Assembly: GCA_036873755.1 (NCBI GenBank)
Contig: JAVTVY010020589.1
Coordinates: forward strand, 1 to 64,000
Length of the DNA stretch: 64,000 bases
Origin: Hanleya hanleyi
Lineage: Eukaryota; Mollusca; Polyplacophora; Lepidopleurida; Hanleyidae
Direction: 5' to 3'
The notes under the pieces are model-generated. The model saw nothing but the letters and a program-made list of their open reading frames with translations, made no database searches and had not been told where the DNA came from. Positions 3,789 to 63,279 of the stretch are shown piece by piece; the first letter of the stretch is position 1, and each line of letters begins with the position of its first letter. The translations under genes and the position numbers were made by a program.

Positions 3789-4950
3789 AATTCGGTTTGA
3801 TTGGCTACTGAATATCAGATCTTACACTCGTATCAGCAGTTATAATTGCAGACTGTGTCTTGTTAATTTTTCGAGCAACTCTGTTCTTCAAAATTTATGA
3901 AATGGCTGATGTGATTGGCATCATGCAATTCTCTCTGATTTCAGTGGATTATCTTAGTGAATATCATAACTAAGGTATTGTAAATATTTTATTCCAAAGG
4001 ACAATGGTGTACATACACAAGTTGACTGATGCTTACCGACATATTTTCACATTCCATGACAATGTTGAAGTGTATTATTCACTTCCCAGACTAATATATT
4101 TCTTCTTTGCTCTTACAAATTATTGAATATTCACTTATATTTAACTGTTTGTGACTTCCAGAGCTGCAGAAAATACTTACCTTGCAAGTAGTCATTGAAT
4201 CAGTCCCTACCTTGCAAGTAGACATTGAACCAGTCGTACACAGTTTCACCAAAGTTTATTTAAAAATTTGTTATAAATTCACAATGCTCTACAGAATGAA
4301 TACATTTATATTTTTACATAACATTTCCATAGCTATACCATGCAGAATCAGGAGTGTATTTTCTCTTATTAATATTCTGTTGAATTCTTATTCCTTGATC
4401 ACTCAAATGAGCTTCAAATCAACCCACTCCACTCCTGCTGCTAATCAGCTGTTCACTCTATGGAGCTGCAGCAGTGGTGACCTACTTTCCAGTATGGGTC
4501 AGCAGAGCTACTACAGACAGTAACACTTATGGGGAGATAACACTAGAACAGGTAAATCTTCAAGGGGAAAGTTAATGAAATTAAGGATTTTTGATCTGGT
4601 TAATGCCATTTTGGTTTAGTTAATGCCATCCAATGTTATTGCAATCCAAAGCACACATTTCTGAGGCTACAACTGATAAAAGAAAGTGTGCACATGAGAC
4701 CCATCTACACATTAAATTGCTCACGATATTAAACCGGATGTAGTCAGATTGGGTCGTTTGCGCTTGCAGTTTCGTCTCAACATGTGTTAAGTATTTCTGG
4801 GATTTAAAGCTGGTATTATTCCAGATTTCTTGTGTAGTATTTTTCGTGAACGTTTTTGGCTTCTGTGCATGGTGAAATTTTGAGTTGATTCGTCAGATTG
4901 TCGCTGTTCGCGGCGGTTTTTGTTTGTCTTGGTAGCCCGTCTGGGTTGAA
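3789..4950. other. Gene-free AT-rich stretch
   Basis: No recognisable product; the 113-codon frame at 4182-4523 resembles nothing I know. A phrase containing CTTGCAAGTAG and CATTGAA is repeated in tandem (period about 33) near 4180-4235. Confidence 0.4.
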
Positions 4951-5489: not shown

Positions 5490-5767
5490 CGTGGTCTTTA
5501 CAACGAATTATGGATTAAGAATACTGATCAGCGATACGGATTTGATATTTTTGGAACATCATCATGTCTTGCCGGCATCATTGAAAACTGTTGACCGCTT
5601 CTCTCTTGCAGGAAACAAGCCTATGTTTATGTACACTATGATTGTCTTTTTGAATTTGGTGCTAATACTGTTATGTGGAAAATGGAATAGGTCTTTGGAT
5701 TATGGACGCGGATATTCTCTAATGGACGACGGCTGGATTATGAATGACGGACTAGACGCTTGTAATT
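5490..5767 (+). repeat. Family-B dispersed repeat with a fixed 3' end
   Basis: It carries GATTTGATATTTTTGGAAC near 5540 and GGACGCGGATATTCT near 5705, and ends in GACGCTTGTAATT at 5767. Related copies occur near 28611-28690 (+), 28766-28870 (-), 34580-34790 (-), 37630-37790 (-) and 57870-58000 (+, partial). Copies vary at the left end while the GCTTGTAATT end recurs, which is the pattern of a 5'-truncated retroposon. The right end abuts the truncated integrase exactly. Confidence 0.65.
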
Positions 5768-6242
5768 CATCCGTTTGCAAATAGAGGGGTTTGCGCCCCG
5801 TCTTGAAAATCTGCTGGAATGCTCCTATTAGATTCTCTCCTGTTTTGGTGCGAATGGGTAGTACCCAGGCATACTTGGATAAAATATCGATACAGGTCAA
5901 TATGTACCGATGTCCATCATTGTGAGGTGCAAATCGACTCATATCCACTAAATCCGCCTGCCATTGCGCGTCTATACCTCCTACGATGACTCGGTTACGG
6001 CGAAAATGTCGTCGGGCTGCTCGATGTAAACTATAAGTGTCTTGGGTATTTAACCAGTCTCGAACTTCAGTTCGACTGATGCCTTGAGAATGGACAGCTC
6101 GAGCCAGCGCTCCCACAGCGCTATACGCGGCTGGACTCGTAGGATTGTAATACAAATCGGTTAACACCTTGTTCACTGTAGATGCTGACTCCTTTTTTCC
6201 CTTTCGGGACCGCCTCATCACGGTGTTCTTCTTACCCTTCAT
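5768..6242 (-). pseudogene. Maverick/Polinton-type (F54H12.3-like) integrase, truncated after the second catalytic Asp
   Basis: It starts at an ATG at 6242 and reads 158 genuine residues. A helical N-terminal part (YYNPTSPAAY, ISRTEVRDWLNTQDTY, HRAARRHFRRNRV) leads to a retroviral-type integrase core. WQADLVDM holds the first catalytic Asp (D97); YILTCIDILSKYAWV, TKTG and GRKPLYLQTD follow, with the second Asp (D158). The open frame continues for 22 residues to 5700, but these are encoded by the family-B repeat. The third catalytic residue (Glu) and any chromodomain are lost. This integrase type inserts linear double-stranded DNA of Polintons and adintoviruses. It would be inactive here. Its 5' end overlaps a small ORF by ATGA. 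Confidence 0.75.
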
Positions 6243-6457
6243 CGGGTCGCCTCTGGGTCCCCGTCATGTGTGTTCGCTTCATCAGGTGACACTGTCACTC
6301 TAGCCTCTGTGCATTCTATAGATATAGTACTTTCGTCTTCCCCGGCTGTATCATCGGATTCATGTTTTTTTTCATGGGGTTCAGCCAGCGCGTCTTCTAT
6401 AGCACGAGCCCACGCCAATTGGTCTGGCTTCGCTAGCTCCAAAACGGCTATTTTCAT
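6239..6457 (-). CDS. Small acidic ORF overlapping the integrase start, 72 aa
   Basis: Starts at ATG 6457; its stop overlaps the integrase start as ATGA. The N-terminus (MKIAVLELAK) is encoded by a repeat unit also found in tandem at 63.2-64 kb, where the matching codons read MEIDVLELG. The C-terminal half is acidic (HESDDTAGEDEST). No known family. It may be an upstream ORF, a separate small gene or the 5' exon of the integrase; expression is unproven. Confidence 0.3.
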   Translation of the reverse strand: MKIAVLELAKPDQLAWARAIEDALAEPHEKKHESDDTAGEDESTISIECTEARVTVSPDEANTHDGDPEATR

Positions 6458-6779: not shown

Positions 6780-7260
6780 AGATGCTAGACTGATCCTATT
6801 AACATGGTACAACACCTATAGATTATGTTTATTATTATTATATGGCTTAGAGGTTTTTTGAGGGTAATTTGTGTTTCTTTTACAATTTTAAACGGCTGTG
6901 ATTTTGCAATAAATGTCAGTGCACGTATAAATTTTATTTCCAATTGAACTCAGGCAACTCATGATGTAGTATTTAAAAAATTTAGCAGCCTAGCGCTAGA
7001 CTAAGCCGTTATTTTTAATGAATTTATCGATTTTTACACGCCTAACGTTAGTGTATGGTAGTATGGAAAACACGGTACACTGGAAATAAATGGATTTTCC
7101 TGGCTAAAAATACGTCAAGACTACGGCTTACAGCCTTATAATATTTCCCTGAAAATTGTAACGGGTTTATCGAAAGAAAACTAGGAAATTTTAATGCTTG
7201 GGCAATGGTAACACAGCGCTATACAGTGTGCAGGCAAACAATTTTAGCAGATACCACCAT
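6780..7260. other. Divergent intergenic region between integrase and RING gene
   Basis: AT-rich with no ORF. Two small palindromes lie about 60 bases apart in related contexts (GCCTAGCGCTAG near 6990; GCCTAACGTTAG near 7041). No core promoter for the minus-strand integrase is certain. Confidence 0.4.
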
Positions 7261-7280
7261 ATTGTACTCACTGACACCGG

Positions 7281-7383
7281 CCGCCATCTTAAACCCACCT
7301 CCCACCATCCACATGCCGCCATCTTAAACCCACCTCCCACCATCCACATGCCGCCATCTTAAACCCACCTCCCACCCACCACA
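7281..7383 (+). promoter_or_regulatory. Three 35-bp repeats with YY1 core, RING gene promoter
   Basis: Units start at 7281, 7316 and 7351, each with GCCGCCATCTT (reverse complement AAGATGGCGGC, the YY1 motif), then CCCACCTCCCACCATCC. They lie just upstream of a TATA box. The same motif, in 36-bp units, forms the large array at 10530-11213. Confidence 0.7.
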
Positions 7384-7442: not shown

Positions 7443-8171
7443 ATGGGTACAAGAAGACGACCAATGTTCACCCACCACCCTCCTAGAGATCCTAGAGAGA
7501 TGGTTACCAGAGAGATGGTTACCAGTGAAGATGATGGTGGAATATCCATAATTACAAGCTTGCAGCCGGTTATTACAGACGAAACCAACATACGGCGAAG
7601 TCAAGAAGAACTGGAACAGCTACGGAGGGATGTAATGCAAGAAGATGCGAGAAGACGAAGTCAACAACAAGACCAAGAAATCAGCAGGATGGTCGCCATA
7701 GAAGAAGAAGATACCGATATAACTGATGGGGAAGAAGAAATTACATGGTTAAACAGTAATAGACCTGCAACAAATACAACCACGTCGGTTTCCGAAACTC
7801 CCATTATAACGACTTCAGCTTCCGAAACAACACCACAACAACCATGCTCTTGGGCCGAGGTAACCCGCCTCAACGAACAAATTAACGGCATGAGACAAGA
7901 CATGAATCTAATGGACGCTGAGATTTCAAGACAGAACAAAGAACGACATAAGGAAGAAAAAAAATCAAGATGTAGCGTGTGTACAGACGAAGAGAGCTTG
8001 TACGCTGTATTGCCGTGTGGGCATTTATGCATCTGTAAAGATTGTTGGGTCACGCTAACGTGTGTAGGAGACATGTGCCACTGCGTTGAAGCAGGCGAAC
8101 AACATTTAAAAATCAAGTGTCCAATCTGCAGGAAGCATGTGGGTGGAATAAAGAGAATCTACCGCGCATAA
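7443..8171 (+). CDS. RING-finger E3 ubiquitin ligase-like protein of virus-like element (IAP-type C-terminal RING), 242 aa
   Basis: The ATG at 7443 has a good Kozak context (A at -3, G at +4). Residues 1-130 are hydrophilic, rich in Arg/Glu/Gln and then Ser/Thr. Residues 135-175 (TRLNEQINGMRQDMNLMDAE) could form a coiled coil. The C-terminal RING has C177, C180, C192, H194, C198, C201, C226 and C229, with CGHLCICKDC followed by CPICRKHV, and ends KRIYRA as IAP and MDM2-type RINGs do. C201 and C226 are 24 residues apart, much wider than in IAPs, and the gap holds extra Cys/His (C207, C212, H213, C214). It likely catalyses ubiquitin transfer in the cytosol or nucleus; no BIR domain is present. 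Intronless, with its own TATA box and a histone-type 3' end. The target is unknown. Confidence 0.75.
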   Translation: MGTRRRPMFTHHPPRDPREMVTREMVTSEDDGGISIITSLQPVITDETNIRRSQEELEQLRRDVMQEDARRRSQQQDQEISRMVAIEEEDTDITDGEEEITWLNSNRPATNTTTSVSETPIITTSASETTPQQPCSWAEVTRLNEQINGMRQDMNLMDAEISRQNKERHKEEKKSRCSVCTDEESLYAVLPCGHLCICKDCWVTLTCVGDMCHCVEAGEQHLKIKCPICRKHVGGIKRIYRA

Positions 8172-8844: not shown

Positions 8845-9087
8845 TTTTTTAATACAATTAACAGTAAAAAAACTCTGAATTTTTAATACAATTATACGCT
8901 CTCAAGTCACTTCAATGAATGTGTACGAATACGGTAAATGTTTTTCAACACTTGTTCAATAGTTCTGCATTTAATACAATTAACAGTAAAAAAACTCTGA
9001 ATTTTTAATACAATTATACGCTCTCAAGCCACTTCAATGAATGTGTACGAATACGGTAAATGTTTTTCAACACTTGTTCAATAGTTC
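8845..9087. repeat. 122-bp tandem duplication covering the 3' end of the CARD-PC4 gene
   Basis: AATACAATTAACAGTAAAA recurs with a period of 122 (8851 and 8973). The following sequence, through TTCAACACTTGTTCAATAGTTC, matches at near identity. The right copy contains the last codons and stop of the CARD-PC4 gene; the left copy is a duplicate of that end and of the 3' UTR. Confidence 0.8.
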
Positions 9088-10352
9088 GCCAACAAGACTT
9101 GTTTGAATTCATCATCGTCTTTTCGTCCCTGGCGCACGTAGATGTACGTAATAATCTCTTCACGTGGAATTTTGGGAGGGCAGGCAGCTTCCACTGCCAG
9201 GGCAATTTGCGTCTCCGTCACCGTCTGTAGTGCCTCAGTGATGATGGCGTATGAGGGTACACTAGTGTCCATGCGAGGTCTGATCAGATCCAGGACTGTG
9301 TCGATGTACTTGTTATAAATATAGTCAGACACCTGGTAAGCCAGAGCTTGACGAATTGTACTTGCGAGACTCTGCAACTTCCGCCACGCCGTTAATTTCA
9401 AAGTGACACCCTGAGGACAAGGTACACGCTCTTGCGTATCTAACCGCATTTTCCATTTACGGATATGCACGAGGAGCTCATCGTTGAAATAGGCACAGCT
9501 CACAAAGATGTCGTCACCCACATGAAATTTCGCTTCGTCACTCCCCTGGTCGCGAATAACAGCATCGATGGCGTATTCAAGGGTCTCCAGTTTTTGCCAG
9601 GTGTCTAAGGTCATGGCAATATGCTTACCGGGTCTGTCGTTAAAGCCCGATGCATTAAAATGCACTTCTTCGTCTTTGACACTCACAGTTAAATAGGCTG
9701 AGAGCTCCCAAATGTCCGTGTGGGCTGCCTGGTAGGCTTGCTGGATAATGTTATTGATATCCTGCACAGACATAGGAAGTTGTACCTCTTGTTTCACAGG
9801 CACTTGCTGGGATATTGGCTGCTCAACCACTGACTCAGGTATTTCTAACGGTGTTAGTCGGGGGCGTTTGGATCGTCCAGCGCGTTTGGCAGGTGTACTC
9901 TCTGGGGTAGTGTGCGTACGTTTGCTAGCTGTACGCTCTTCGGTAGTGTCCATCACTAAGAAATCATCATCTACAAGGGGAATTTCAAGTAGATCTGCTA
10001 GTTCTCCATTTCCCGTCTTCTTGAGCGCCTCCACGAAGGCTAGAAATGCATAGGGGCCACGGCGCAGTAGACCGTCGATGAGAGCTCTGTTTTGTCGTGA
10101 AGGGGTATTCTCCGCCATGATATCTTCGACACCCTGTTTCAGGAGTATGTTATCGTCCATAAGCAGATCACATAATTCGGCCGCATGCTGCATCTCATCA
10201 ACGAGGCGAACACGGTTCTTTTGAAGCGTCACTAGGTCGGCTGAATTCATCATGACTATGGGCTCAGGCTGCTGAGTAACTGCTACCGTGTAAAAGTCTG
10301 GTGAATTTGCACTGGTAAAATGAAATATAGTCAAAGGTTCTCCACAGCTCAT
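9078..10352 (-). CDS. CARD and tandem PC4-like domain protein of virus-like element, 424 aa
   Basis: The first in-frame ATG is at 10352, in a weak context (T at -3); M34 at 10253 has G at -3 and lies just before the first domain. Residues about 36-123 read as a caspase recruitment domain: LQKNRVRLVDEM, LCDLLMDDNILL, VEDIMAE, SRQNRALIDGLLRRGPYAFL, ALKKTGNGELADLL. A basic stretch at 144-166 (KRTHTTPE, AKRAGRSKRPRL) looks like a bipartite nuclear signal, and VKQE at 186-189 fits a SUMO site. Two PC4/p15-like modules follow: about 215-268 (LTVSVKDEEVHF, DRPGKHIAMTLDTWQKL) and about 276-338 (IFVSCAYFNDELLVHIRKWKM, GVTLKLTAWRKL). The last 85 residues are unassigned. CARDs bind other CARDs in caspase, adaptor or inflammasome signalling; PC4 binds single-stranded DNA and aids transcription. 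The fusion is not one I know. Confidence 0.7.
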   Translation of the reverse strand: MSCGEPLTIFHFTSANSPDFYTVAVTQQPEPIVMMNSADLVTLQKNRVRLVDEMQHAAELCDLLMDDNILLKQGVEDIMAENTPSRQNRALIDGLLRRGPYAFLAFVEALKKTGNGELADLLEIPLVDDDFLVMDTTEERTASKRTHTTPESTPAKRAGRSKRPRLTPLEIPESVVEQPISQQVPVKQEVQLPMSVQDINNIIQQAYQAAHTDIWELSAYLTVSVKDEEVHFNASGFNDRPGKHIAMTLDTWQKLETLEYAIDAVIRDQGSDEAKFHVGDDIFVSCAYFNDELLVHIRKWKMRLDTQERVPCPQGVTLKLTAWRKLQSLASTIRQALAYQVSDYIYNKYIDTVLDLIRPRMDTSVPSYAIITEALQTVTETQIALAVEAACPPKIPREEIITYIYVRQGRKDDDEFKQVLLANY

Positions 10353-10377
10353 ACAAGTAGGCAAGCAGGCTGGATGA

Positions 10378-10506: not shown

Positions 10507-10515
10507 CCTTTTATA
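10507..10515 (-). promoter_or_regulatory. TATA box of CARD-PC4 gene
   Basis: Minus-strand TATAAAAGG, just downstream (in gene direction) of the last unit of the 36-bp array. It predicts a transcription start near 10480 and a leader of about 130 bases to the ATG at 10352. Confidence 0.6.
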
Positions 10516-10529
10516 CGTTTTTCTACAAG

Positions 10530-11213
10530 CCGCCATCTTGAAACCCACCACCCACCAACCACATGCCGCCATCTTGAATCCCACCACCCACCAACCACAT
10601 GCCGCCATCTTGAATCCCACCACCCACCAACCACATGCCGCCATCTTGAATCCCACCACCCACCAGCCACATGCCGCCATCTTGAATCCCACCACCCACC
10701 AACCACATGCCGCCATCTTGAATCCCACCACCCACCAACCACATGCCGCCATCTTGAATCCCACCACCCACCAACCACATGCCGCCATCTTGAATCCCAC
10801 CACCCACCAACCACATGCCGCCATCTTGAATCCCACCACCCACCAACCACATGCCGCCATCTTGAATCCCACCACCCACCAACCACATGCCGCCATCTTG
10901 AATCCCACCACCCACCAACCACATGCCGCCATCTTGAATCCCACCACCCACCAACCACATGCCGCCATCTTGAATCCCACCACCCACCAACCACATGCCG
11001 CCATCTTGAATCCCACCACCCACCAACCACATGCCGCCATCTTGAATCCCACCACCCACCAACCACATGCCGCCATCTTGAATCCCACCACCCACCAACC
11101 ACATGCCGCCATCTTGAATCCCACCACCCACCAACCACATGCCGCCATCTTGAATCCCACCACCCACCATCCACATGCCGCCATCTTGAATCCCACCACC
11201 CACCATCCACACA
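10530..11213 (-). promoter_or_regulatory. 36-bp tandem array, 19 units, each with a YY1 core
   Basis: Nineteen units start every 36 bases from 10530 to 11178. Each has GCCGCCATCTTGA on the plus strand, so CAAGATGGCGGC on the strand of the CARD-PC4 gene, plus CCACCCACCAACC. Units are nearly identical; the two farthest from the gene read CCATCC like the RING-gene units. Because 36 is a multiple of 3, several frames are open through it; those frames are artefacts. Confidence 0.85.
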
Positions 11214-11216
11214 CCC

Positions 11217-11280
11217 CACGTGACCACAATACTCGCTTCTGATTGGCTGATGCGTGACGTAACAAAGGTCATATGCAAAT
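11217..11280. promoter_or_regulatory. Enhancer-like cluster beyond the array
   Basis: Within 64 bases lie an E-box CACGTG (11217-11222), an inverted CCAAT box in GATTGGCTGA (11241-11250), a CRE-like TGACGTAA (11255-11262) and a perfect octamer ATGCAAAT (11273-11280). They sit upstream of the CARD-PC4 gene beyond its array. Confidence 0.45.
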
Positions 11281-11463
11281 TTCTGAGGTCAATAGGACTC
11301 AATTTACGCTTTGTATACTACTCTTCTAATAACCGTACATGGTCATCTACTTACCATAATAATGGGGCACATGGACAGGTCAGGAAGAACATAAACAACG
11401 ATAGATGTACACATTTCTCGTCTATTTTCTTTTGAAATAAAGTGTCAATGAACCAAAAACCAT

Positions 11464-33415: not shown

Positions 33416-34579
33416 TAGATATCCTTAGCATATTAAGCCATGAAGGCGAAGAATCCACCATAAACACGAAATACTGTTGCCATTAGAGTTGGTTGATTCA
33501 AAGTGCCGATCGCAATGCAGTTATTCTGATTATTTAATCAACAAAATGCCTCTAGGGCGCGTTTCAGGAATGCATACACTTTTTTGGCGCTCGGACTGCG
33601 TTTGAGGACTAGTATGCAAGGCAGAAAATTAATGTAGCTGCACGTCAGAGACGCATGTTGAGAGATTTCCTTATATTCACCAGAACACATCATCCAAGAT
33701 CCTAAGATATTAAGTCCATGAAACCCTTATGGGCGGCGATGGATCGTGCATTTGTGGCAAAGAGTATTCATCCGATACATTTGAAGTGATTGGAAACTGC
33801 GTTTCTTAAAAAAATTGACGATAGCCCGATATCTTTGCAACATTAACATTGGGAGTAGCATACCATGGCGTTCTACGTCAATAAGTGAAGTTCGACGTGG
33901 AAAAGCAGAATACAAAGGAATATCGACCGACTACAACGTAGCTGCAAGCACTGCTGTAATTCGAAAATTTTTCCATTGATATTATGTTTGAAAAATAATT
34001 CGCTTTTTATTCGCATTGACGTTCTCGTGAATTAGCATAGATTAATGTTAGTTCATCTGAAATGGCACAATATCTGAACTCCAAAACAGGTATGTCGACC
34101 AAAGCTCAAGAATGTTGGTAATCCAACCGTCGAACTATATACTCTCAACGATTCCAGAAGATGCTGAGATCTATTATATCGCCTGTTATCCAGGTTTTAT
34201 CAAAACATGTGTCGATAGTCAGTCTGATGTTTTGCTCAATCTTTCTTGAGTTATTGTCTTCAAATCTCTTCCACATACTTCTAAAATACTTTGCACTACT
34301 TTCTATCTGAAACTCGAGACAAAACACTCACCAACATCCTGCTGAGTGAGCATGAAATCTTCAAGTTTAAAATGTTTTTTTCTTGAAAACCATCATATCT
34401 GCCTCTCTTTTGATAAAGTCAGCCACTAAGATAAAGGTCATGTGACAATTTTGACTAATCAGATAACGTGTTTTGTGCAGAAAATATGGCGTAGATAGGG
34501 CGCAGTTGTGGCGCAATTAGGGCGCACGCTCAGAATAGTATTAGCATGAATAATGGTACGGCGCACTTGGGCCGCAGGT

Positions 34580-39099: not shown

Positions 39100-40445
39100 C
39101 TATGCAAATTGCTGGGAACGTCAATGCGAAAAAAAAACATTCTCCCCATTGAAATAGTGAAGCTGGTACTTCGCAGAATTAAACTATCACTGCAATATAT
39201 CACAAAATTGAGATCAAATCACTCGAATCCTGCATATAACTGTGTTTTCAACCCTCAGTACGTTGATTTCTATTTGAAGAAACCCTCCATTATTCCGCCT
39301 CTTGGAATTCGTATGAAACCACACATTGTAGCAGCTTAGTCAAACTTTACCTAACAAGCTCTTACCAATTCCACCATGGCAGTTAGCTAAACCAGAAGTA
39401 GATAATACACTAAAGAAATATAAAAAGGCAGACACGAGTCAGCTCGTGTATGGACAAGAATTTGGTCTGCTGAGAGAAAAATACAGATCGCATCAGGTTA
39501 TCATTACAGGTGGTTCTAATGATGGTGAGAGAGTAGCATGTGCTAATATCTTCAGTTCCAAAACTAAAACCTGTCGACTACCAGGTATGTGTTGTAATTC
39601 GATATTCACTGCAGAAGCAAAAGCTATATTTTCGGCTTTGGAACATATTGGGTCCACTAAAAGGAAAAAATATGTCTTATTCTCAGATTCACTGTCATGC
39701 CTTCAAGCCATTAAAATTGGAACTTCAACTCATCCCACCATCTTGAATATTCTACAGTTATATGACTGTAGATTTGATCAACAGATTGATATTGTGTTTT
39801 GCTGGTTGCCCAGTCACGTTGGCATCAAAGTTAATACTGAGGCTGATAAAATGGCTAAGGCAACCCTAGATAATGAGGTTGATCCTGCAGGAATCCCATA
39901 TAGCGATTTCAGATCCTCTATCCGCACTTATGTGAGAAAGCTGTTTCAATCTTTATGGGATGCTGTGAATAAAAACAAACTTCATGAGTTCAAAAAAAAA
40001 CTGTAGGCTATACTCATCTGAACAACCAGAAACGTTTCGATCAAGCCATGATCAGGCGATGTAGAATCGGCCATACACGATTAACTCACGAACATTTACT
40101 AAAAAAAAGAGCCAGTCCCAAGGTGTATTCCATGCCACGAAGATCTCACAGTGAAACATATTCTTATCGACTGTATAGATTTTAAGATTGTAAAAGATAA
40201 TTTTTTATTGAGCAACTACTTTAGAAGATCTTTTTGGTCGGGTGAAAGAAGACTGTGTCTTGGGTTATTTGAGAGAAATCTGTTTGTTGCATAAGTTCTA
40301 ATGTCTGTGTGTTTTAATGTGTTGGATTACTAAGTTATTAACTTGAATACTTAGAATTTTGTTTGATCGTCGATATATAGCTGAAATGTTGCAGAACGCG
40401 ACGTTAAACGTTAATTCTCTCCCTCTCTCTCTCTTTCTCTCGCTC
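39100..40445 (+). pseudogene. LINE 3' fragment with RNase H domain, copy 2
   Basis: Post-RT segment (KLRSNHSNPAYNCVF, PPLGIRMKPH) then an open RNase H frame from a GTG at 39446 to 40006 (186 codons, no ATG start). It has FTAEAKAIFSALEHI (E57), FSDSLSCLQAI (D81), FCWLPSHVGI and TEADKMAKA (D134). The first catalytic Asp is replaced: TGGS at 21-24 where TDGS is expected. An added A in the run near 39995 ends the frame. The 3' tail is GCGACGTTAAAC plus TC repeats. Probably of the I/Nimb-like group with a C-terminal RNase H. Confidence 0.7.
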
Positions 40446-42260: not shown

Positions 42261-45200
42261 CTCAGTATCCTTAGCATATTGAGCCATGAAGGCGAAGAAT
42301 CCACCATAAACACGAAATACTGTTGCCATTAGAGTTGGTTGATTCAAAGTGCCGATCGCAATGCAGTTATTCTGATTATTTAATCAACAAAATGTCTCTA
42401 GGGCGCGTTTCAGGAATGCATACACTTTTTTGGCGCTCGGACTGCGTTTGAGGACTAGTATGCAAGGCAGAAAATTAATGTAGCTGCACGTCAGAGACGC
42501 ATGTTGAGAGATTTCCTTATATTCATTATGTAAAAACTATAACACATCATCCAAGATCCTAAGATATTAAGTCCATGAAACCCTTATGGGCGGCGATGGA
42601 TCGTGCATTTGTGGCAAAGAGTATTCATCCGATACATTTGAAGTGATTGGAAACTGCGTTTCTTATAAAAATTGACGATAGCCCGATATCTTTGCAACAT
42701 TAACATTGGGAGTAGCATACCATGGCGTTCTACATCAATAAGTGAAGTTCGACGTGGAAAAGCAGAATACAAAGGAATATCGACCGACTATAACGTAGCT
42801 GCAAGCATTGCTGTAATTCGAAAAGTTTTCCATTGATATTATGTTTGGAAAATAATTCGCTTTTTATTCGCATTGACGTTCTCGTGAATTAGCATAGATT
42901 AATGTTAGTTCATCTGAAATGGTACAATATTTGAACTCCAATACAGGTATGTCGACCAAAGCTCAAGAATATTGGTAATTCTTCCTATATTCAATAACCG
43001 TCGAACTATATACTCAGGAATCAACCCGATTCGACAGAACAACATTGTTCTATCGAAGCTTCGATTCGTCCATCAATGTATTAACCATTATGGCAGAGAA
43101 TGTATCGGTAGCCACAAAGTAGATTCTCGCCAGGTGAGCCGATTAAAACCGTCAACTTGTATACTCATTAGACGTTGCACCTTGAGGTTTAGAAATTGGA
43201 ATGCGAAAAACTACTATCAACTGATGCATAATTCAAAGTGCATCTCTCTTCGGAAATAAGATTCAACTTTTGTGATATAAATCCAAAATGACGAACAAGA
43301 GATAAGATGTCAAGGAAATGCAGTCCTCAATGATGTATGATACAAACAGAAAAAAGCCAACGACATAAAGGCGTCCTTCCTGTCGAATTCAATACATGTA
43401 ATAAATAAAATAGGAAAGTCACTTCTTTCAGATCACGGCCAGATTTTCGGGCATTACATCATTGGGCCTGACGAAACTAATAATGTGTTAGCGAGAAATT
43501 CAACGCCTATGGAGCCGAATAGGCAAATGACTCCATTATCTAGAGAGCTGCTCTCAACGATTCCGGAAGATGCTGATTTCTATTATATCGCCTGTTAGCC
43601 AGGTTTTATCAAAACATGTGTCGATAGTCAATCGGATGTTTTTGCTCACTCTTTCTTGAGTTATTGTCTTCAAATTTCTTCCACATACTTCTGAAATACT
43701 TTGCACTACTTTCTATCTGAAACTCGAGACAAAACACTCACCAAGATCCTGCTGAATGAGCATGAAATCTTCAAGTTTAAAATGTTTTTCTTGAAAACCA
43801 TCATATCTGCCTCTCTTTTGATAAAGTCAGCCACTAAGATAAAGGTCATGTGACAATTTTGACTAATCAGATACCGTGTCTTGTGCAGAAAATAAGGCGC
43901 AAATAGGGCGCAGTTGTGGCGCAATTAGGGCGCACGCTCAGAATAGTATTAGCATGAATAATGGTACGGCGCACTTGGGCCGCAGGTAAGGCGCAGTCAT
44001 CTTTTTTAAACAAAGCAAGAGTTTTGATTGAAATAGAGTTATTATTAGCTCTATATGACACGTTATGAATTTGAAGCCCAGGACGTTAGGATGCAATTCA
44101 GAGGTTGCAATTAGGGCGCAACAGGCTGGCTGAATTGGAGGATTGGGGCGCAAATTTGGGCGCAGCAGCTGTACAAGGCGCATATAGGGCAATAGTACAG
44201 CTCACATAAGGCGCGAGTTGTTAGCATTCTACTTTCTGAACCTGTAGATGACTAGCCTGTTGAACTCCATGTCAGTTTAACTGATCTGACGATCGAGAAT
44301 CAAAAACATGAACATCACAAACTGTTGATGGGTCCACCTGACAAGAAACTAGCTTGTGTCTAATGATATATACTTTTATTATTTATACAGCTGTGAATTG
44401 TAAGGGTTTTCTACACTTTTAAAAGTGTTACTTCAGTGTAATAACACATTTGTTATTACACTCCTGGTGGGTATGAACTTTGATAGTGCCGGAACTACAT
44501 TTTCTATGCCCGTCTGCAAACGTTTTATTCTGGATATGAACTCATGGAAACAATCTTGCAAATTTAATCCATATCGCAAATATCAGGGATTGCCATATCT
44601 CATTTGAGATAATTTACCCTCAATTAGTCCTTGGCCCTGAACTGATTAACAAGGATAATAGTTTTGATGAGCAAGGATAATAGCTTTGGATACGTTTCAC
44701 ACCTTATACAATTGCTACTGTTTTGTAGATTAAATATTTAGGTGGGTGGAGGGACGGGAAGTGGCTGGGCTTTAATAGTGGCGCGCCGTTTGGTGCGAAC
44801 GACCCCCTCTCCGAGCCCAAACATCTCACTGTTATCTCAGGTTTAATGTTCTGGGGGTTTGCTGTGTATCGCCCTAGATGTGTCTTGCTCAGATACTGTT
44901 CCAATCACAGAACCTATTCATATATCATGCAACAAAATAATTATATTTATCTCAGGAGCATTTTCGCGCCAAATCATAGAACGTTTGGAAAAAAGTTGCG
45001 TGAGTGGCTTGTCATTCAGGGATCAACAACACCCAAATGTGAGATGATCTTCGACAAAACACACCAACTTCTCCTTATGGCTCAGGTGCGCATTACGTAA
45101 ATCAGATGTTTGTATCTATAACGACATTGTCAAGTGACTTCGCTAGCTTCCAGACAAATGCAAGTCGTATAACTATCCACAGTTTTTGTTTTTGTATTTC

Positions 45201-62220: not shown

Positions 62221-62980
62221 CTTTTCTCCGCGGTGTAAACCTTTTCTCCGCGGTTGAAACCTTTTCTCCGCGGTGGAAACCTTTTCTCCGCGGTGTAAAC
62301 CTTTTCTCCGCGGTGAAAACCTTTTCTCCGCGGTTGAAACCTTTTCTCCGGGGTGGAAACCTTTTCTCCGCGGTGTAAACCTTTTCTCCGCGGTTGAAAC
62401 CTTTTCTCCGCGGTTAAAACCTTTTCTCCGCGGTGGAAACCTTTTCTCCGCGGTGTAAACCTTTTCTCCGCGGTTGAAACCTTTTCTCCGCGGTTAAAAC
62501 CTTTTCTCCGCGGTTAAAACCTTTTCTCCGCGGTGGAAACCTTTTCTCCGCGGTGGAAACCTTTTCTCCGCGGTTAAAACCTTTTCTCCGCGGTGGAAAC
62601 CTTTTCTCCGCGGTTGAAACCTTTCCTCCGCGGTGGAAACCTTTTCTCCGCGGTGGAAACCTTTTCTCCGCGGTGGAAACCTTTTCTCCGCGGTGGAAAC
62701 CTTTTCTCCGCGGTTGAAACCTTTTCTTCGCGGTGGAAACCTTTTCTCCGCGGTGTAAACCTTTTCTCCGCGGTGTAAACCTTTTCTCCGCGGTTGAAAC
62801 CTCTCCTCCTCGGTGGAAACCTTTTCTCCGCGGTGTAAACCTTTTCTCCGCGGTGTAAACCTTTTCTCCGCGGTGGAAACCTTTTCTCCGCGGTGAAAAC
62901 CTTTTCTCCGCGGTGAAAACCTTTTCTCCGCGGTTAAAACCTTTTCTCCGCGGTGGAAACCTTTTCTCCGCGGTGGAAAC
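62221..62980. repeat. 20-bp satellite, 38 units
   Basis: Units of CTTTTCTCCGCGGTGNAAAC run in exact 20-base phase over 760 bases. Variation is concentrated at two or three positions after CCGCGG (GTGG, GTGT, GTTG, GTTA, GTGA). Almost every unit has a SacII site. Long frames on both strands (up to 224 codons) arise only because the unit lacks stops in some phases. Confidence 0.95.
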
Positions 62981-63279
62981 ACACGTGACTTGACAGTCTC
63001 GCTCTGGGCTTGTACCGCCATATTGTTTTCTTGGAAAATCGTTAGTAGTAGTATAAGAGTAAAAAACCGCATATTGACCCCTTTGCACTTAAACTTGAGG
63101 GGTAACTGGTGATTTCCCTAAAGAATCCGACAGGGGGCGCCACCAGCTCAAGAGAGCTCCTCGCAAAAGGGAGGCAACTCTTGATGTACTTTTGTGGTTT
63201 TTGGCAAATGTCGGGTTATCTTCCCTGATTCGAACATTTGCATATTAAATCTATACGAGAAAATGCCTGTATGGGGTAT
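62981..63279. promoter_or_regulatory. Promoter-like sequence between satellite and NRF1 repeats
   Basis: CACGTGAC at 62982-62989 directly abuts the array, as CACGTGAC does at the end of the 36-bp array (11217-11224). CCGCCATATTG at 63015-63025 is a YY1-like core, and GGGGGCGCCACCAG follows near 63134. No gene is visible. Confidence 0.35.

Follow-up and report, generated by a model that had tools for sequence, protein, structure and literature searches.

Here we describe, in a 64,000-nucleotide stretch of DNA from the mollusc Hanleya hanleyi (GenBank assembly GCA_036873755.1, contig JAVTVY010020589.1, positions 1 to 64,000 of the forward strand; hereafter the window), a gene that joins a caspase recruitment domain (CARD) to two PC4-like modules, carried by a mobile element that we assign by gene content to the Polinton/adintovirus type. 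At the level of the predicted protein, the fusion of CARD and PC4 in one intact open frame is confirmed. Our favoured explanation, held tentatively at a probability of roughly 0.45, is that the product is a viral nucleic-acid-binding accessory protein that would also engage, and probably block, host CARD signalling. CARD proteins of viruses have been described before, as have proteins of the PC4 type. Our literature search, which covered open-licence papers, found no earlier description of CARD and PC4 in one chain, of either with a Polinton or adintovirus, or of the two together in an animal element of this type, in agreement with an earlier sequence-only reading of this DNA that knew of no protein with such a layout.

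The gene and the parts of its product are as follows, with residues counted from the ATG at 10352 (some queries were numbered from a TTG, which adds 4).

9078..10352, minus strand: CARD-PC4 gene, a single open frame of 424 amino acids with its ATG at 10352 and its stop codon at 9078-9080.
9984..10247, minus strand: CARD, residues 36-123 (Pfam stretch 42-123), by Pfam and PDB sequence match.
9855..9887, minus strand: basic stretch KRAGRSKRPRL resembling a nuclear localization signal, residues 156-166, with KRPRL (162-166) invariant in 24/24 aligned copies.
9786..9797, minus strand: SUMO-type site VKQE, residues 186-189, mostly kept.
9549..9752, minus strand: first PC4-like module, residues 201-268, by family-profile comparison with the second.
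9333..9548, minus strand: second PC4 module, residues 269-340, Pfam PF02229.
9081..9332, minus strand: C-terminal region, residues 341-424.

The frame that the sequence-only reading had placed at 9078..10352, without stating a strand, is real and lies on the minus strand, and sequence profiles support the order it had proposed: CARD, basic region, two PC4-like modules. Upstream, the frame continues open beyond the TTG at 10364. The ATG at 10352, the first downstream of a TATA-like box, is missing in 4 of 64 analysed copies from the host assembly, and M35 is invariant in 24 aligned copies; a shorter start at the second ATG pair (M34/M35), which has a G at position -3 and lies where the CARD begins, may therefore serve too.

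PF00619 matched residues 42-123 at 54.3 bits against a curated cut-off of 23.9 (E = 1.4e-14) and recurred at E ≤ 0.001 in 24/24 aligned copies, bearing out the CARD proposed at residues 36-123. The best PDB match was the CARD of caspase-9 (3ygs, 5wvc and 5wve; E = 4.4e-6 with the single sequence), which improved to E = 1.7e-7 with a profile of the 24 copies; cIAP1 (BIRC2), CED-3, RAIDD and one designed protein ranked below it. AlphaFold predicted five helices over residues 40-122 from the single sequence, at low confidence (pLDDT ~31-51).

For the second PC4 module, PF02229 matched residues 280-328 at 28 bits (27.9-28) against a cut-off of 25 (E = 1.6e-6) and was found at E ≤ 0.001 in 23/24 aligned copies, while a family profile matched human PC4 structures (1pcf, 4usg) at E = 8.4e-11. 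Profile searches, the check that the sequence-only reading had itself named for CARD and PC4, thus found both Pfam domains above their curated cut-offs. The first module is less plain, as residues ~198-273 alone gave no Pfam match, even at E ≤ 10. Profiles of the two modules aligned to each other with an hhalign probability of 92 and a score of 36.1, which 0 of 100 column shuffles reached (highest shuffle score 16.7); these profiles were built from 8 family members, of which three pairs are near-duplicates. In addition, CARD-less relatives (described below) align to the same two modules in the same order. On the basis of the profile comparison and this shared order we accept two PC4-like modules, the first of them diverged, and because its homology to module 2 comes without a Pfam match we call it PC4-like and not a Pfam member. 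The earlier claim of two PC4/p15-like modules stands by Pfam for the second; for the first it fails by Pfam and holds by the family-profile comparison. A second AlphaFold run, which like the first used the window sequence alone, gave the order E-E-E-H, E-E-E-E-H, roughly fitting two PC4 units at low confidence (pLDDT 48.4), and a fold comparison of this low-confidence tandem-module model returned no significant fold match. Within the set of PC4 residues that contact single-stranded DNA, the IR pair of module 2 is retained (I297 and R298, invariant in 24/24 copies).

That the domain calls arose by chance, or that errors of assembly or frame created the fusion, strikes us as scarcely credible. 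The missing Pfam match of module 1 and the low confidence of the AlphaFold models would allow it, but the CARD and PC4 matches recur across the 24 aligned copies, one open frame is found in 66 of 70 copies taken each from a different contig (some may be alleles), and the same fusion is present in a second subfamily. For the CARD and the second PC4 module this reading is refuted at the sequence level.

Between the domains, the basic stretch KRAGRSKRPRL could direct import into the nucleus. The nuclear signal claimed earlier holds as far as the stretch itself and the invariance of its KRPRL core go; import is predicted from them. The SUMO-type site fared less well: VKQE is present and mostly retained, but V186 varies among copies, the second subfamily having A there, and we grade the site as weak. 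In the C-terminal region, 39 of the 98 listed copies have a match that is split after residue 361 (365 in TTG-based query numbering), and in those split-class copies that were read, 21-23 extra residues containing the motif C-x2-C-x8-H-x-C are inserted in frame at this place. The window copy is without this insert.

The gene is highly repeated in its host. A search of the assembly (2.48 Gb, 52,793 contigs) revealed at least 98 close CARD-PC4 copies (98 of 7631 first-look candidates scored), with a stop inside 7 of the 138 match rows. In the 66 copies mentioned above, the window copy included, no stop interrupts the frame between the start region and the end of the second PC4 module, and four (L028, L033, L040 and L047) are broken by stops. 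A second subfamily of the same layout (L079-L081 and partial L086-L089) has strong CARD matches (E = 4.3e-14 in L080 and 6.5e-15 in L081) and, beside the gene, a recognisable RING neighbour in 3/3 copies and a RING-like neighbour in 2/2 copies with sequence at that place, these neighbours being 28-60% identical to those of the first subfamily and partly fragments. Such numbers bear on whether the copies now serve the host as a DNA sensor, in which the PC4 modules would detect viral single-stranded DNA and the CARD would start antiviral signalling. The domain logic is like that of sensor-adaptor proteins and the great majority of examined frames are open. However, so large a number of like copies, spread over many contigs and linked with genes of the element, points to an amplifying element and not to a domesticated single-locus gene, as does the recurrence of the layout with related neighbours in the second subfamily, and we consider a host sensor improbable.

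The assembly also contains at least 150 PF02229 matches (150 of 3117 candidates scored, all above the cut-off) and tandem-PC4 genes that lack the CARD. In L083, L084 and L085 the tandem PC4 is accompanied by a C-x2-C-x4-PSQ-x2-H-x-C region (one C is lost in L085); L082, L090 and the shorter L091 and L092 have neither the CARD nor this region. At a distance of ~6-7 kb, L083 has a broken Polinton-type ATPase (58-60% identical) and integrase (57-65%), and the stretches read beside L082 and L084 contain no match to the element's genes. Since CARD-less tandem-PC4 relatives exist, one of them near Polinton-type genes, the comparison suggests that the CARD was joined onto an older tandem-PC4 protein; the reverse, loss of the CARD from CARD-bearing forms, is possible.

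Two further observations concern these relatives. The tandem-PC4 gene of up to 233 amino acids (L082 and L090-L092; G000 C52444 and others) occurs apparently dozens of times, often in facing inverted pairs several kb apart on one contig, and is of a different mobile family, with no Polinton gene in the single interval read (L097). The CARD-less tandem-PC4-zinc gene (L084, L098 2778-3230, L099) forms an inverted pair with repeated outer flanks.

We compared the rates of nonsynonymous and synonymous change (dN/dS) across 64 of the 70 copies, leaving out the four stop-broken ones and two open ones (L056 and L062) and keeping L075, which stops early near the C-terminus. These copies have a median pairwise identity of 94% (lowest 90%). 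Pairwise dN/dS was 0.15 for PC4a and 0.14 for PC4b, 0.34 for the C-terminus, 0.39 for the linker, 0.43 for the N-terminus and 0.72 for the CARD. Counting changes on a tree, where recombination between copies inflates the counts, gave 0.17 (0.09-0.32) and 0.16 (0.08-0.30) for PC4a and PC4b, 0.37 for the C-terminus, 0.40 for the linker, 0.62 (0.32-1.24) for the CARD and 0.70 (0.25-2.71) for the N-terminus. Among close copies it is the PC4 modules that form the constrained core; constraint on the CARD is weak or shifting, even though the domain still matches its profile strongly. We do not claim positive selection for this domain, as its tree-count interval includes 1.

Between the subfamilies (four pairs), dN/dS was 1.10-1.35 for the CARD, 1.10-1.76 for the linker and 0.31-0.58 for the PC4 modules, with a silent divergence of 0.10-0.14 in the CARD versus 0.36-0.58 in the PC4 modules. 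For the two second-subfamily members L080 and L081 the CARD ratio came to 2.24, but at a dS of only 0.016 there were too few changes to use it. For the low silent divergence of the CARD we prefer the interpretation that the domain may have been exchanged between subfamilies and then have changed in amino acids. An overlapping gene was rejected as the cause of the few silent CARD changes, as none of the seven sequences inspected has another reading frame open through the N-terminus and CARD.

The same comparisons speak to a different role for the CARD, in which it has no host target and instead self-polymerises, so that a single-strand-binding protein built of tandem PC4 would coat single-stranded DNA cooperatively or form a replication body in the nucleus. 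CARDs form helical assemblies, the constrained part among the copies is the PC4 modules, and similarity between subfamilies is no lower for the CARD than for those modules; the CARD-less relatives would mean that the core works without host targeting, so that the CARD could be an assembly add-on. Weak constraint on the CARD among close copies argues against self-assembly, although the tree-count interval includes clear constraint, and so does the nearest CARD match being the apoptotic caspase-9. We regard this alternative as conceivable but doubtful.

The genes around CARD-PC4 agree with the virus-like mobile setting proposed earlier, as they are of Polinton/adintovirus type and the unit is present in many genomic copies. 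In the window the element comprises the following.

7443..8171, plus strand: RING-finger gene of 242 amino acids, the convergent neighbour of CARD-PC4 (Pfam zf-C3HC4_3, E = 1.3e-7).
6248..6427, minus strand: fragment of a predicted gene corresponding to L011 ORF583.
5766..6263, minus strand: N-terminal part of a truncated Polinton-type integrase (rve, E = 1.2e-5; its 25.9 bits fall short of the 32.6 cut-off).
11212..11322, no strand assigned: end region of the element, with 11322 as the point where homology to two other copies stops.

The RING gene adjoins CARD-PC4 in 7/7 other copies with 10-kb pieces, and a RING-like acidic gene follows in 6/7 (counting the adjoining piece L016), the L013 piece ending before that place. 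The integrase fragment is 95% identical by tblastn to that of L011, whose rve match exceeds the cut-off. L011 and L012 are adjoining pieces of one copy, with an rve match in L011 (E = 5e-11) and a chromodomain in L012 (E = 5.6e-6). DNA polymerase B (PolB) of the organellar/viral type (DNA_pol_B_2) was present in 2/2 copies with the next inward piece (E = 1.9e-8 in L016 and 6.1e-7 in L012), and the one copy scanned for it, L011/L012, has a match to a Pox_A32-type ATPase whose 22.7 bits (E = 7.7e-5) narrowly miss the cut-off of 22.8. Three other element open reading frames (ORFs) gave nothing useful against the PDB by sequence. PolB, ATPase and capsid-region ORFs were not found in the window's first 20 kb, and ~4.1 kb of L011 have no counterpart between window positions 6427 and 6867 (matches >150 bases). 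The window copy is a truncated element remnant in which the CARD-PC4 gene is intact. Its outer end reads 5'-AGTAGTATACAAAG inward, one end reading AGTAGTATAC; in Polintons the terminal inverted repeats begin with AG and target duplications span 6 bases. With 0-1 mismatches allowed, no partner inverted end was found in the window's truncated copy.

Within the element, an inverted repeat of ~315-347 bases (87-98% alike) brackets the RING-like acidic gene (L009 1043-1357/3592-3906, also L011, L014 and L018), and the window retains one arm of it at 6867-7183. In L011, an acidic gene at 3881-4816 with a weak RING match that stays under the cut-off (zf-C3HC4_3, E = 0.0024) has the integrase side on one flank and the RING gene on the other.

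Searches elsewhere returned nothing comparable. Against a large protein set that may hold few animal elements, the full CARD-PC4 protein had no match at E ≤ 0.01 (5297 candidates), residues 200-428 none at E ≤ 10 (552 candidates) and the tandem-PC4 alignment none at E ≤ 0.01 (3257 candidates). Viral contigs, where animal elements may likewise be few, gave no match to the CARD-PC4 protein, the integrase fragment, the repeat unit described below, PolB or the capsid-position ORF; the tandem-PC4 alignment contained no segment of sufficient conservation to serve as a query against them.

In the explanation we favour, CARD-PC4 would be an accessory gene of a Polinton/adintovirus-type element, itself an integrated animal DNA virus or a self-synthesising transposon. 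The tandem PC4 modules would pair within one chain as PC4 does between two chains, and this core would bind single-stranded DNA in the nucleus where it is exposed during replication or in opened promoters. The caspase-9-like CARD added in front, probably captured from the animal host, would bind host CARD proteins of a cell-death or immune pathway, most likely as a decoy that damps host signalling while the element replicates. Such a protein would link death-fold signalling to DNA, as the sequence-only reading had suggested. A bolder version, which we consider rather speculative, is that the tandem PC4 loads on viral nuclear single-stranded DNA and that the array of CARDs displayed there captures or poisons the CARDs of host initiator caspases or adaptors, coupling replication to cell-death suppression; the fusion would then be a CARD added to an old tandem-PC4/zinc protein of animal Polintons.

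Several observations weigh against the decoy explanation. A 442-residue ORF occupies a place fitting for a capsid gene and has no Pfam or PDB match by sequence; because the capsid gene is unconfirmed, the element is filed no closer than Polinton/adintovirus-type. In the family-profile alignment, module 2 has FNDE where PC4 has FKGK and PCPQG for PGRKG, both within the contact set, and with some basic contact residues not kept there and module 1 more degenerate, DNA binding could be weak or altered. The high CARD ratio among close copies is largely due to few silent changes: CARD dS is 0.050 versus 0.069-0.103 elsewhere, and the C-terminus (0.035) and linker (0.033) have dN values near its own 0.036. 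In the tree count the N-terminus scores as high as the CARD. Between the subfamilies, the CARD is 70-76% identical versus 65-69% for the PC4 modules (four pairs), and the linker ratios extend higher than those of the CARD; these figures do not show the CARD to be the fastest-changing part. An arms race in the CARD would fit these rates, as would recombination and relaxed selection.

The region upstream of the gene contains the following features.

10509..10515, minus strand: TATA-like box TATAAAA, 157 bases upstream of the ATG.
10525..11211, no strand assigned: 36-base repeat in 19 copies with core GCCGCCATCTTG, upstream of the CARD-PC4 gene.
7280..7383, no strand assigned: 35-base repeat in three copies with core GCCGCCATCTTAAA, upstream of the RING gene.

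Both arrays share the core GCCGCCATCTT(G/A)AA, and all 22 repeats have one orientation. Among 10 distinct copies (15 locus records, five being second pieces of the same copy), 10/10 have a TATA-like box 121-157 bases upstream and 10/10 have repeat units related to the CARD-PC4 array, mostly 36-41 bases apart and numbering 1 to 21 by a strict pattern. Three core sites precede the RING gene in the window, L009 and L011 (3/6 copies with the RING start located). With a core that resembles the YY1 site AAGATGGCGGC, the arrays look like an enhancer that would be driven by a host factor. In positions 11212-11300, strings recalling known factor sites are dense, with CACGTG, ATTGGC, TGACGTAA, AAGGTCA and ATGCAAAT within 90 bases.

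This arrangement raises the alternative that the protein is a transcription regulator of the element, its tandem PC4 acting on opened promoters, such as the one with its own repeat array, and its CARD recruiting or titrating a nuclear host CARD protein. PC4 is a transcription cofactor, and both the upstream repeats with a TATA-like box, present in 10/10 distinct copies, and the like core before the RING gene would suit such a role. However, a core resembling the site of a host factor need not involve the CARD-PC4 protein, the strict core pattern finds nothing ahead of the RING gene in L013, L014 or L018, and in the second subfamily the upstream sequence available (330-418 bases) showed no core site. 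We judge a regulator unlikely.

Elsewhere in the window, an 839-amino-acid open frame on the plus strand (1-2520) runs off the window start and looks transposon-derived by eye, and a 186-amino-acid frame at 39446-40006 resembles, also by eye, part of a retrotransposon RNase H. Three identical short matches ~8.85 kb apart (33608-33917 and 42454-42774) indicate a direct duplication, and 62414-63088 is a repetitive stretch in which two frames are open and an RRKGFHRGEKV-type unit recurs.

CARD-PC4 offers a concrete test case for how elements of this type handle host cell death, and the presence of tandem PC4 with and without the CARD provides a modular contrast within one genome. To our knowledge, little has been established about animal Polinton replication proteins besides PolB, and tandem PC4 is a candidate single-strand-binding gene for these elements.

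Comparison with known systems places the parts of the protein as follows. Module 2 matches PC4/p15 by Pfam and by family profile; unlike PC4/p15, the protein described here has two modules per chain, the first diverged, a partly changed contact set for single-stranded DNA, and an extra CARD and C-terminal region. PUR-alpha and Whirly proteins, in which PC4-like units are paired in one chain, are precedents for an intramolecular pair. In the CARD, R47 and R89, which adjoin the frequently changing positions 48 and 90, align with R13 and R56 of caspase-9, whereas the place of R52 is taken by Q87, with R86 adjoining, and the protein has no caspase domain.

The element resembles adintoviruses and Polintons in its viral-type PolB and its rve integrase with a C-terminal chromodomain, and probably also in its putative A32-type ATPase and its 5'-AG end. 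A chromodomain on the integrase is described as an adintovirus trait, and the adintovirus hexon and an OTU-like PolB domain are named (PMC11071296). CARD and PC4 terms are absent from the main text of that paper, as is PC4 from a second (PMC11071308).

For the proposed action on host signalling, the closest comparison is with ranavirus vCARD, a short CARD protein that is not known to carry PC4 modules. It comes from a different virus group (Iridoviridae) and is likened here by function, not by sequence. Like CARD-PC4 in the explanation we favour, it is a CARD protein of an animal DNA virus, and when it was deleted from FV3, a ranavirus, apoptosis reportedly rose and replication fell (PMC8524050), an effect of the kind that a CARD decoy would predict.

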